Source: Candidatus Saccharimonadota bacterium (GTDB lineage Bacteria; Patescibacteriota; Saccharimonadia; Saccharimonadales; Saccharimonadaceae). Taken from it: a stretch of DNA of 64,000 bases. The translations under genes and the position numbers were made by a program. The stretch covers positions 1 to 64,000 of the forward strand of contig JAGCBP010000015.1 in assembly GCA_017652105.1 (NCBI GenBank), written 5' to 3'. Of the stretch, positions 29,905 through 39,661 are shown in pieces; within the stretch, counting starts at the first letter, position 1, and each line of letters starts with the position of its first letter. Below the pieces are notes generated by a model. It did no database searches and had not been told where the DNA came from. It saw only the letters and a program-made list of their open reading frames with translations.

Positions 29905-30704
29905 GCCGCTCTAGAGGTCCGAAAATTTTAAATGGGCGGGAATTGGCTGAGTTTATTAAAGAACGGCAGGCTTCGGTGGTGCGTGGTTTAAAGCGGAAGC
30001 CGCAACTTTTGATCATCCGAGATTCGGACAATCCGGTGATCGTGAAATATGTAGAATTAAAAAAACGATATGGTGAGGATATCGGGATTTCGGTGATTGA
30101 CTATTTGGCGGAAAATTCGGATGACATTAAAAAACGGATTTTGGCGGCAAATGAAGACGATGAAATCGATGGGATAATTTTGCAACTACCGATTCTCGAA
30201 AAAGAGCAGACCGATGAGCTGGTGGATTTGATTGCACCAGAAAAAGATGTTGATGGATTGGGCGCTCAGGCGGGATTTGATTCGGCAACGGCAACGGCGA
30301 TTTTGTGGCTGCTTAGTGGCTATGATATTGGGCTAGATAATCGGCGAGTGGCTCTCGTTGGGCGAGGAAAATTGGTGGGGGCGCCGCTTTTTGAAATATT
30401 TTCAAAGTCGGGGGTGGATGTGGAAATGTTCCACCGGGGTTCGGATTTGTCGCGGCTAAAGGATTTTGATGTGATTATTTCTGCGACTGGGGTGCCGGGG
30501 TTGATTACTGATGAAATGGTGTCTGCTGGCGCGGTGGTAGTGGATGCTGGGACAGCGAGCGAAAATGGGGTTTTGAAAGGCGATGTGTCGGACGCAGTGC
30601 GAGCTCGTGATGATTTGCTCGCGATTACGCCTCTTACTGGCGGGGTGGGGCCGCTCACGATTACGTGTCTTTTTGAGCATGTGCTCAATGCGGCTTTAGC
30701 ATAA
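29901..30704 (+). CDS. folD: Bifunctional methylenetetrahydrofolate dehydrogenase/cyclohydrolase
   Basis: 267 residues. FolD marks: VKYVELKKRYGEDIGI (catalytic Tyr/Lys region), DGIILQLPI, PEKDVDGLG, VGRGKLVGAP (nucleotide loop) and TPLTGGVGPLT. It interconverts methylene-, methenyl- and formyl-tetrahydrofolate for one-carbon supply. It overlaps murB by 4 nt. Its last codons (coding LA then stop) coincide with the first bases of intergenic element A. Confidence 0.93.
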   Translation: MSRSRGPKILNGRELAEFIKERQASVVRGLKRKPQLLIIRDSDNPVIVKYVELKKRYGEDIGISVIDYLAENSDDIKKRILAANEDDEIDGIILQLPILEKEQTDELVDLIAPEKDVDGLGAQAGFDSATATAILWLLSGYDIGLDNRRVALVGRGKLVGAPLFEIFSKSGVDVEMFHRGSDLSRLKDFDVIISATGVPGLITDEMVSAGAVVVDAGTASENGVLKGDVSDAVRARDDLLAITPLTGGVGPLTITCLFEHVLNAALA

Positions 30705-30748
30705 GCGAGGGGTAGGGGGTTGATTTTTGATTTTTTCTGTGCTAGTAA
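30693..30748 (+). promoter_or_regulatory. Element A: G-rich promoter module
   Basis: TTTAGCATAAGC, then GGGGTAGGGGGTTGA, -35 TTGATT (30720-30725), exactly 17 nt, and -10-like TAGTAA (30743-30748) preceded by TGTGC. Two further copies are at 37970 and 39394. Confidence 0.7.
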
Positions 30749-30809
30749 TGAGGCAGGAAATAGGTGCGGGCGTAGTTTAAAATAAACGTGGAAGGAGAAA
30801 GGAGGTTGT

Positions 30810-30881
30810 ATGCAGATAGAACTGGAAGAAATGAAAGTAACTATTAAGCTAAAAATTACTCCCGCTAAGAAGCGAGAGTAA
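30810..30881 (+). CDS. Element A small ORF, 23-residue peptide
   Basis: 24 codons including the stop. It begins MQIELEEMKV and ends ITPAKKRE: alternating hydrophobic residues, then a Pro followed by a basic tail. The RBS is very strong (GGAGAAAGGAGG, 5 nt before the ATG). The other two copies of the element (38143, 39499) also carry ORFs of exactly 72 nt with a Pro/basic tail but with different sequence. The last codons form the terminator hairpin of a predicted antisense RNA. It may be a type I toxin-like or other regulatory peptide. Confidence 0.6.
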   Translation: MQIELEEMKVTIKLKITPAKKRE

Positions 30882-30889
30882 CCAACCAT
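30851..30889 (-). ncRNA. Element A predicted antisense RNA (about 39 nt)
   Basis: Minus-strand promoter: TTGACT (30919-30924), exactly 17 nt, TAGGAT (30896-30901). Start near 30889. The RNA ends in UUACUCUCGCU-UCUU-AGCGGGAGUAA-UUUUU (hairpin 30856-30881, U-run 30851-30855). On this strand the stem has a U-G pair where the plus strand would have a C-A mismatch, so the structure belongs to the minus strand. It overlaps the end of the 23-codon ORF. Confidence 0.6.
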
Positions 30890-30895
30890 AATTTA

Positions 30896-30924
30896 ATCCT
30901 ACCATACACAGCTGTATAAGTCAA
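30896..30924 (-). promoter_or_regulatory. Element A convergent promoter
   Basis: TTGACT-N17-TAGGAT on the minus strand, with TGG before the -10. Its spacer holds ACAGCTGT. The rest of the region to recA (30925-31013) contains only the recA promoter and RBS. Confidence 0.65.
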
Positions 30925-30978
30925 CGCCTATTTCCTATTTAAGTATAACCCTTTTGATTTGTAAAGTCAATAGAGCTA

Positions 30979-37967: not shown

Positions 37968-37969
37968 TT

Positions 37970-38021
37970 TAGCATAAGCTGGGGGTAGGGGGTTGAAAAT
38001 GTATATGAGGTGTGCTAGGGT
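37970..38021 (+). promoter_or_regulatory. Element B: G-rich promoter module
   Basis: TTTAGCATAAGC, then TGGGGGTAGGGGGTTGA, -35 TTGAAA (37993-37998), exactly 17 nt, TAGGGT (38016-38021) preceded by TGTGC. The leader of about 115 nt to the small ORF holds hairpins such as TTGGG/CCCAA and GCAGTA-CCC-TACTGC (38070-38084). Confidence 0.7.
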
Positions 38022-38142: not shown

Positions 38143-38214
38143 ATGACACAGTTTGCGTTCATTATCATCAATTTCGGTAAAGACAAGCAGCCGAAGAAAA
38201 ATAAGAAGGATTAG
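38143..38214 (+). CDS. Element B small ORF, 23-residue peptide
   Basis: 24 codons including the stop. It starts MTQFAFIIINFG and ends KDKQPKKNKKD: a hydrophobic first half and a strongly basic tail after a Pro. RBS GGAAGGAGAG. It has the same length and plan as the ORFs at 30810 and 39499. The stop codon lies in a hairpin (AAGAAGG...CCTTCTT, 38203-38232) that is the terminator of the antisense transcript. Confidence 0.6.
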   Translation: MTQFAFIIINFGKDKQPKKNKKD

Positions 38215-38269
38215 CTCAAGCTAAACCTTCTTACCAACCCGAGATAGCTTCCTTAGTGGCTATCTCCAT
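38197..38269 (-). ncRNA. Element B predicted antisense RNA (about 73 nt)
   Basis: Promoter TTGACA (38299-38304), exactly 17 nt, TACAAT (38276-38281) on the minus strand; start near 38269. The RNA has GATAGC/GCTATC (38241-38266) and ends with AAGAAGG-TT-TAGCT-TG-AGCTA-AT-CCTTCTT-ATTTTT. It overlaps the last codons of the small ORF. Confidence 0.6.
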
Positions 38270-38275
38270 ATCTTT

Positions 38276-38304
38276 ATTGTATCTCAAGCGGGATAATATG
38301 TCAA
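38276..38304 (-). promoter_or_regulatory. Element B convergent promoter
   Basis: TTGACA-N17-TACAAT on the minus strand, the strongest of the three convergent promoters. The plus-strand promoter of the next gene (TATAAT 38322) is just behind it, so this is a divergent control region. Confidence 0.7.
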
Positions 38305-38356: not shown

Positions 38357-39388
38357 ATGGAAAAAGATAATGCAGAAAAAGTAGAAGAAAAACATGACGA
38401 AGTGGATGTGCGCAAAGCATCGGAAGAAAATAAAACGCTAGAAGATGATGCTATGCAAAAAGAGGACGATATATCGGAACCTAAATCGGCGGAATCGAAG
38501 AAAAAGCACAATGTGTTAGCAATTGTTTTTGCGTTTTTGATGCTAGTATGTGCAGGAGTGGCAGTGTTTTTTGGAATAAAATACTTTGAACCAAAAGAAG
38601 AACCAGAGCCAGTCACGGTAGAGAAAATAGAAAAAGAGGTAAAAGTGGAAATCGTAAAAGAAACGATGGCGGATGATTATAAAGAAGTTGTAGATGTGGT
38701 GAATAGTTTAACAGCTGGGGTTGAGAATGACTGGAACTATACCGAAAATGGCGATGGGCTGACTTATAAGCCTGAGGGAATAAGCACTTATATGCCAATG
38801 AAGTTGGATATAGAAAAGAAAGTGAAAAATTCTAATAATAATGAGGAAAATGCGAAGTTTCTAGAAACTACATTAAAAGAGCAGGGGTTTAGTTCAATTG
38901 GTGTATTGCCATTCCTTGGATCAGCGGGGCCTAGGATTGATGGTTATTACGATGCCACTCGTGATATTGTGTGTGGCATATATGGTGATGCTGATTGGAA
39001 TAGCTACAACAATACATCTTTACAATATCTTGTTTTGGAATGTGCTAAAACGGATTGGGTTTGGCTAACTGAAGCGGACAAAACTTTAGTATCTGAGCTT
39101 GAAACTGCTTACTATGAAAAAGAGGGAAAATATCCAACAGTAATGTATAATTTGAATAATAATATAAAAGATAGCCAATACACTCCGTATCAAACTCTCA
39201 GAATAAGTGTTGGTGGCGCGGCAGGGCTTTTCTACAGAACTAGTCCAGAAGCAAAGTGGCAATTCTTTACGGGGACACAGGCTGTTTTGGATTGTAGTGA
39301 TTATAATACTGAAGATTTGAAGAAAGCATATTTGGGTGAGCCTTGCTATAATTATAATACCCAAACAGATTCTACTGTGCAACTGTAA
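38357..39388 (+). CDS. Single-pass membrane protein with extracellular domain, unknown function
   Basis: 343 residues. Acidic, Lys-rich cytoplasmic N-terminus (1-52), one helix at about 54-76 (LAIVFAFLMLVCAGVAVFFGI), a Glu/Pro/Val stalk (EPKEEPEPVTVEKIEKE) and an extracellular domain of about 240 residues with four Cys (DIVCGIYG, VLECAKTD, VLDCSDYN, GEPCYNYN) that could form two disulphides. No family recognised. The terminal part is rich in Asn and Tyr. It stands between elements B and C. Confidence 0.65.
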   Translation: MEKDNAEKVEEKHDEVDVRKASEENKTLEDDAMQKEDDISEPKSAESKKKHNVLAIVFAFLMLVCAGVAVFFGIKYFEPKEEPEPVTVEKIEKEVKVEIVKETMADDYKEVVDVVNSLTAGVENDWNYTENGDGLTYKPEGISTYMPMKLDIEKKVKNSNNNEENAKFLETTLKEQGFSSIGVLPFLGSAGPRIDGYYDATRDIVCGIYGDADWNSYNNTSLQYLVLECAKTDWVWLTEADKTLVSELETAYYEKEGKYPTVMYNLNNNIKDSQYTPYQTLRISVGGAAGLFYRTSPEAKWQFFTGTQAVLDCSDYNTEDLKKAYLGEPCYNYNTQTDSTVQL

Positions 39389-39393
39389 ACATT

Positions 39394-39446
39394 TTAGCAT
39401 AAGCTGGGGGTAGGGGGTTGAAAGTCTAGATGGGGTGTGCTAGGGT
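39394..39446 (+). promoter_or_regulatory. Element C: G-rich promoter module
   Basis: TTTAGCATAAGC, then TGGGGGTAGGGGGTTGA, -35 TTGAAA (39418-39423), exactly 17 nt, TAGGGT (39441-39446) preceded by TGTGC. Very close to element B over about 55 bp. Confidence 0.7.
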
Positions 39447-39498
39447 AGATGATACGGGGTTGACACTTTAAAAACTTGCGGGGAGAAAGGAGGAGAAT

Positions 39499-39570
39499 AT
39501 GGGTTTAGAAATAAACTTTTTATTTGGACTTGTCCACATAAAAATTATCCGTCCTAGAAAGAACGGATAA
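39499..39570 (+). CDS. Element C small ORF, 23-residue peptide
   Basis: 24 codons including the stop. It starts MGLEINFLFGLVHI and ends KIIRPRKNG: hydrophobic, then basic after a Pro. RBS GGAGAAAGGAGGAG, nearly identical to element A. The stop codon is part of the perfect inverted repeat TTATCCGT/ACGGATAA (39545-39570). Confidence 0.6.
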   Translation: MGLEINFLFGLVHIKIIRPRKNG

Positions 39571-39581
39571 CATAATCTCTT
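39540..39581 (-). ncRNA. Element C predicted antisense RNA (about 42 nt)
   Basis: Promoter TTGACT (39611-39616), exactly 17 nt, TAGAAT (39588-39593) on the minus strand; start near 39581. It ends with TTATCCGT-loop-ACGGATAA followed by TTTTT (39540-39544 on the plus strand as A). Confidence 0.6.
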
Positions 39582-39587
39582 GATTCT

Positions 39588-39616
39588 ATTCTACCGTACA
39601 CTAATTAATTAGTCAA
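39588..39616 (-). promoter_or_regulatory. Element C convergent promoter
   Basis: TTGACT-N17-TAGAAT on the minus strand. The spacer contains the 14-bp palindrome ACTAATTAATTAGT, a possible operator. Confidence 0.65.
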
Positions 39617-39661
39617 CCCCGGTTTGAGATTTGACAAAAATGTTATATAATATATATAGTT

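Follow-up and report, generated by a model that had tools for sequence, protein, structure and literature searches.

Three short elements, termed A, B and C, in the 64,000-nucleotide stretch of DNA analysed here (the window), which comes from an ultra-small gut member of the Saccharibacteria, are best explained as multi-copy, genus-restricted loci resembling type I toxin-antitoxin systems, with a probability of roughly 0.6 when the step that makes the peptide a toxin is included. Each element carries a G-rich sense promoter, a 23-codon open reading frame (ORF) and a convergent antisense promoter, and the predicted antisense RNA ends at a terminator lying over the last codons of the ORF. The argument for this reading draws on the layout of the elements, the conservation of their peptides, the covariation of their RNA stems and their distribution among related genomes.

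Organization of the elements

Element A spans positions 30695-30936. It begins with a CATAAGC box and G-rich module (30695-30723, plus strand) of sequence TTTAGCATAAGC-GA-GGGGTAGGGGGTTGA, or TTTAGCATAAGC-NN-GGGGTAGGGGGTTGA in its general form, whose last four bases are the start of the -35 hexamer. The sense promoter, TTGATT-N17-TAGTAA with an extended -10 TGTGC, occupies 30720-30748 (plus), with the -35 TTGATT at 30720 and the -10 TAGTAA at 30743. Downstream lies a 5' arm, CAGGAAATAGGTGCGGGCG (30754-30772, plus), whose partner is the 3' arm GTCAACGCCTATTTCCT (30920-30936, plus), a pairing based on covariation in 43 A members. Between the arms stand the Shine-Dalgarno sequence GGAGAAAGGAGG (30794-30805, plus), which is kept in the family alignments, and the ORF MQIELEEMKVTIKLKITPAKKRE (30810-30881, plus), which consists of 23 sense codons and TAA. 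On the minus strand, an antisense promoter, TTGACT-N17-TAGGAT (30896-30924), precedes a terminator hairpin (30854-30883) that covers the final codons and the stop and forms a 13-pair stem (30883-30854) followed by a U-rich tail. The predicted antisense RNA (30849-30889, minus) would be about 40 nt long, its start site being placed from the promoter and the terminator. In these elements, the antisense -35 sits within the 3' arm.

Elements B and C have 23-codon ORFs that differ from that of A, in the same layout. The box of B (37968-37996, plus) and that of C (39393-39421, plus) repeat the box of A exactly, and the number of such boxes expected in the window is 0 from 100 shuffles. In B, the ORF MTQFAFIIINFGKDKQPKKNKKD (38143-38214, plus) has a homologous peptide, MAQFALIILNFSKKNKQPKKNK, at locus L072. 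Its antisense terminator hairpin, AAGAAGG...CCTTCTT followed by a T-run (38203-38232, minus), was read from the sequence and has an equivalent in L072; the antisense promoter, TTGACA-17-TACAAT, lies at 38276-38304 (minus), and both leader and antisense RNA are longer than in A. In C, the ORF MGLEINFLFGLVHIKIIRPRKNG (39499-39570, plus) is flanked by a 5' arm, CGGGGTTGACACTTTAA (39455-39471, plus), and a 3' arm, TTAATTAGTCAACCCCG (39605-39621, plus), which form an inverted repeat, with the antisense terminator hairpin at 39544-39571 (minus) and the antisense promoter, TTGACT-17-TAGAAT, at 39588-39616 (minus). Four copies of a further family, D, lie outside the window (C6:11621, C15:1028, C16:2055 and C17:37219), giving seven elements in this 0.67 Mb genome.

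An earlier reading of this DNA (the sequence-only reading) had described the G-rich module, the TTGATT-N17-TAGTAA promoter, the ribosome-binding site and an ORF of 24 codons, stop included, and had noted the same design at 37970 and 39394. All of these features are found here at the positions given. The complementary arms of A (30754-30772 with 30920-30936) had been overlooked. Between B and C, the window also encodes a 343-residue protein (38357-39388) with one hydrophobic stretch near its N-terminal start, for which a Pfam search gave no family above cut-off.

Conservation and character of the peptides

Comparison of homologous ORFs, an approach already proposed in the sequence-only reading, points to selection at the protein level. 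Over codons 2-14, which largely avoid the antisense overlap, the pN/pS values are 0.34 in A (42 distinct sequences), 0.39 in C (13) and 0.17 in D (19), and third codon positions vary most in the ORFs of all three families. These values indicate that the peptides are real proteins under purifying selection, from which translation of the ORFs is inferred. The ribosome-binding site is strong and peptide length nearly constant, at 22-28 residues. Type I systems have a short ORF, below about 60 codons, that is really translated, and the ORFs here have 22-28 codons.

Type I toxins are usually, though not universally, hydrophobic peptides with a transmembrane helix. No such helix is present in the A, C and D peptides, which instead are positively charged overall (median net charge +2 to +3.5) and strongly amphipathic when treated as beta-strands, with a moment that exceeds the helical one. 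Their GRAVY values are -0.5 in A, -0.6 in D and +0.3 in C. Searches of Pfam, NCBIfam and PDB gave no match to the peptides, and Rfam gave none to element A.

The predicted antisense transcription unit

Counted at -5 kcal/mol or below, a minus-strand terminator is found in all 44 A elements, 18 of 20 C and all 51 D (113/115 in total), with mean energies of -14 to -16 kcal/mol across the families. At the same place on the sense strand, a terminator occurs in 0/44 A, 8/20 C and 2/51 D. Resampling of synonymous codons keeps the terminator in 46% of A, 23% of C and 69% of D sequences with weaker means, and the observed mean was never reached in 12 resampling trials. A sigma-70-type antisense promoter is present in 43/44 A, 16/19 C and 38/51 D elements, against 10-16% of shuffles (16% for A), and its spacer is 17 in nearly all of them. 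The predicted antisense start lies 16 nt from the stop codon in A and C and 44 nt from it in D; the predicted RNA lengths are about 40-45 nt for the former two families and about 85 nt for the latter. The antisense promoter and the hairpin on the last codons, both proposed from the window sequence, are general features of family A.

The composition of the stem points to the strand to which the hairpin belongs. When the A stems of 44 elements are folded as antisense RNA, they contain 48 G.U pairs versus 2 C.A mismatches; folded as sense RNA, they contain 2 versus 43. A single U-G pair had led the sequence-only reading to assign the hairpin to the antisense RNA, and the family-wide count agrees with that assignment. 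The bias toward the antisense strand is smaller in C and weak in D.

The A stem occurs in several registers, and among registers with at least five distinct A sequences, changes on both sides of the stem (compensatory changes) are seen at 19 of 36 pairs. Residue 17 and the C-terminal residues of the A peptide co-vary so that the stem is preserved, as in the swaps ITPRKKGN (ACCC...GGGT), IAPRKKSN (GCTC...GAGC), ISPRKKGN (TCCC...GGGA) and ISPRKKRD (TCTC...GAGA). The tie between peptide sequence and antisense stem makes this a clean natural case of two genes on one stretch of DNA. RNAalifold run on the entire A alignment returned no structure, probably because subgroups differ in stem register and because the closing helix extends over the greater part of the RNA; the A antisense stem was analysed by register group instead.

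A separate observation concerns the leaders of family D (200 nt; for example L214, reverse strand, about 400-565), which are rich in UUCUAG, with 0.93 per leader versus 0.07 in shuffles. This motif complements CUAGAA in the antisense hairpin loops, and the two may possibly form loop-loop contacts.

Pairing of the mRNA ends

Covariation shows that the 5' leader of the predicted A mRNA pairs with its 3' trailer. Two leader-trailer helices in 43 A elements are 82% paired, versus 32-47% when the alignment is slid by 1-3 columns. The closing helix has 95 double-change cells versus a shuffled mean of 34.5 and a covariation score of 0.299 versus 0.171; comparison with shuffles can be inflated by relatedness, which the slid control retains. 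This column-wise analysis replaced a duplex test whose windows took in promoter DNA and which was too blunt, especially for D. In folding models, 3' truncation raises the unpaired fraction of the Shine-Dalgarno sequence from 0.55 to 0.61 in A and from 0.33 to 0.44 in C, suggesting that the closing helix may weakly hide it. A search for a sense terminator found nothing consistent, with candidates modestly above shuffles.

A promoter shared with DNA-uptake genes

The sense promoter box, whose core is also written CATAAGC-NN-GGGGTGGGGGG, extends beyond the peptide elements. With up to three mismatches, about 60 sites occur in 27 of the 174 genomes of the same genus; loci with the box include the window sites together with L005, L095, L061, L064 and L071. 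In this and some related genomes it heads comM (8 loci, including L005), comEC (9) and recA (6, four of them with element A in between). Also under the box are PemK/MazF-like genes (7), CdiA_C-like genes (7), KilA-N/ORF6N, secreted cutinase-like and rpsF genes, and the peptide elements; these tallies are our own counts, with Pfam applied to representatives and sequence likeness to the others. The pattern GTTGN-N14..18-TRTGN(N)TA is present in about half of the elements in A and in D and in a third of those in C, versus 0-2% of shuffles, and the full CATAAGC box in a smaller subset.

Saccharibacteria are naturally competent (PMC10633639). The genes under the box suggest that it is a DNA-uptake promoter class in some species, and that the CATAAGC and G-rich promoter marks a candidate DNA-uptake regulon that includes toxin-like genes. 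The shared promoter makes a Saccharibacteria DNA-uptake regulon directly testable.

Two further observations come from these loci. At L064:1622-3493, a ComEC-type ORF runs in frame into a complete YebC/TACO1 protein; the resulting frame of 624 residues matches PF03772, PF20772 and PF01709 and may reflect either a genuine fusion or the assembly. At L060, L062, L106, L109 and L110, stand-alone CdiA_C-like ORFs lie directly below the box promoter.

Distribution and loss across relatives

The element families are confined to one GTDB genus of gut Saccharibacteria. Wider searching, as proposed in the sequence-only reading, recovered both the box and the peptides: at E <= 0.1 per genome, peptide profiles detect 50 genomes with A, 24 with C and 53 with D among the 174 of the genus, and a strict cut of 1e-4 leaves, by our count from the tables, 36, 9 and 41. 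The best profile E-value goes down to 1e-19. From fetched DNA, 117 unique elements were examined (44 A, 20 C, 51 D and 2 B). When 393 genomes were drawn evenly across 156 genera of the order, confident A and D matches were confined to this genus; a single D match outside it (E 0.006, within a 240-residue frame) looks like chance. The named relatives recognized through RecA are Saccharibacteria, several of them from the gut of sheep, goat, horse or buffalo. Two further peptide types with the same layout were recognized by eye, with one example each: MTITVKLGRLHLKLTIALRRRRHR at L096 and MGREHKLLLVIRLWTKKITVIVKWR at L083.

The flanking sequences of 43 A elements fall into 12 groups, those of 18 C elements into 15 and those of 49 D elements into 33. 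The main site of A is upstream of recA, where about half of its members sit, and the largest downstream-flank group holds 21 elements. Upstream of recA at L245, L246 and the recA loci of two genomes, G176 (L077) and G186 (L082), the ORF and antisense hairpin are both gone and the promoter and the two arms persist, at least as traces; this looks like loss by internal deletion. The sequence-only reading had held that relatives keeping the hairpin and losing the ORF would speak against it; in the relatives examined, the hairpin was lost together with the ORF.

Proposed mechanism and alternative explanations

In the proposed mechanism, the G-rich sense promoter would produce an mRNA of about 200 nt with paired 5' and 3' ends, encoding a cationic, beta-amphipathic peptide of 22-28 residues. 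The convergent sigma-70-type promoter would produce an antisense RNA that ends at the intrinsic terminator above the last codons and measures about 40 nt (families A and C) to some 85 nt (family D). This RNA would pair with the 3' coding end and trailer of the mRNA, and cleavage of the duplex or a block of translation would keep the peptide silent; the complementarity of the predicted RNAs is given by their overlap, and repression is putative. When sense transcription rises or antisense transcription ceases, the peptide would be made and would slow or stop growth, most likely by acting on the membrane or on nucleic acid. Since comEC, comM and recA share the promoter in this genome and some relatives, the peptides are probably expressed there at the times when DNA is taken up and recombined.

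The likeness to type I systems drawn in the sequence-only reading is strengthened as regards architecture (peptide, antisense signals, closing helix and copies) and does not extend to the peptides, which are not hydrophobic helices. Membership in type I is not established, as toxicity and repression are putative and neither a hydrophobic helix nor homology was found. More tentatively, the elements might represent a new class in Patescibacteria: RNA-silenced amphipathic beta-strand peptides, with their last residues set by antisense-terminator pairing, of which a streamlined genome keeps several copies. In some species they would be under a DNA-uptake promoter and be released at competence. If this is true, the released peptides would act to arrest growth, to control incoming DNA or to affect neighbouring cells.

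A possible but doubtful alternative is that the peptide is a useful small protein without toxicity, which in competence might for instance modulate DNA uptake, RecA or the envelope, and that the antisense RNA only sets its dose. The purifying selection is pertinent here, as low pN/pS is equally expected of such a peptide. The promoter common to comEC, comM and recA also suits this role, as do the charged amphipathic beta peptides without membrane helices, and the frequent position of A directly upstream of recA could reflect a recA-linked function. However, a dispensable module would explain better than a common housekeeping role why a genome carries multiple diverged families and copies in unrelated contexts, why presence is patchy, and why relatives have apparently lost the ORF by internal deletion at recA. 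A further alternative is a selfish or repeated RNA element, dispersed in the genome, with an ORF and an antisense RNA that benefit its own propagation and not the cell; many unrelated insertion contexts, multiple copies, patchy distribution and relics with both arms but no ORF agree with such an element. That origin is unlikely, given that inspection by eye showed neither a transposase nor a target duplication or terminal signature at the elements, that searches of phage, plasmid and viral-contig collections with the peptides, of low power for such short queries, gave no match, that the peptide N-terminus is under protein-level selection, and that 21 A elements with related downstream flanks form one large group at a single site.

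The short ORF and strong ribosome-binding site upstream of recA (A) and lepA (C) would also be expected of a leader-peptide attenuator of a downstream gene such as these. This is disfavoured as highly improbable: recA and lepA have promoter-like sites of their own downstream, the ORF contains no run of a regulatory codon, and the conserved hairpin is a terminator of the opposite strand. The attenuator was rejected on the varying downstream context, evident in the numbers of flank groups, and on the lack of any sense terminator at the end of the 44 A ORFs. Convergent terminators are common, and the hairpin might merely stop stray antisense transcription without any regulatory RNA. That idea, scarcely credible, was rejected on account of the antisense promoter, which stands with its 17-nt spacer at a fixed distance upstream in unrelated contexts, and of the stem, which is kept through amino-acid changes in the peptide. 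The type I-like reading remains the preferred one.

Comparison with known systems

In TxpA/RatA, BsrG/SR4 and YonT/SR6 of Bacillus subtilis, a convergent antisense RNA overlaps the 3' end of the toxin mRNA, an arrangement also predicted for the elements described here. The overlap has been reported for SR6 (PMC5848175), and TxpA/RatA and YonT/SR6 work via RNase III (PMC12390103). Compared with the Bacillus systems, the present peptides have at most half the length and are not hydrophobic, the predicted overlap falls on the last codons, and no homology was found.

Type I systems have been described only from Proteobacteria, Firmicutes and Tenericutes, apart from one cyanobacterial locus (PMC12390103, 2025). 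In Microcystis, a cyanobacterium, MsoT1 of the MsoT1/MsoA1 pair is predicted to have two transmembrane helices (PMC12390103). By description, this pair resembles the present elements as a type I-like locus beyond those three phyla and differs from them in its two predicted helices and cyanobacterial host. For Saccharibacteria or Patescibacteria, nothing relevant on type I or antisense systems was found among the open-access papers listed.

The sense promoter has a parallel in the competence regulons of other bacteria, in that one promoter lies upstream of comEC, comM and recA, but in the present genomes peptide loci, PemK-like genes and CdiA_C-like genes lie under it as well. To our knowledge, its sequence is unlike those of competence promoters.

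The closest type I parallel is AapA/IsoA, which the elements most resemble in their closing helix and multi-copy nature. In Helicobacter pylori, this multi-copy system comprises a 30-residue peptide, an 80 nt antisense RNA and a 5'-3' mRNA interaction (PMC6733600). Both have several chromosomal copies, with peptides of 30 residues there and 22-28 here and cis-antisense RNAs of 80 nt there and a predicted 40-85 nt or so here. Both would have an mRNA of about 200 nt with a long-distance 5'-3' interaction, indicated here by covariation in 43 A elements. However, the antisense RNA here is convergent and would end on the last codons, whereas that of AapA/IsoA lies opposite the ORF body; the peptides here are of an amphipathic beta-strand type, occlusion of the ribosome-binding site, which in AapA/IsoA results from the long-distance interaction and is relieved by 3' trimming, is weak in folding models, and no sequence relation was found (Pfam and NCBIfam for the peptides, Rfam for element A). 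A well-conserved counterpart in Saccharibacteria would extend the type I kind to the candidate phyla radiation, and it would raise the question of why reduced genomes of about 0.7 Mb keep such loci, here in seven copies.
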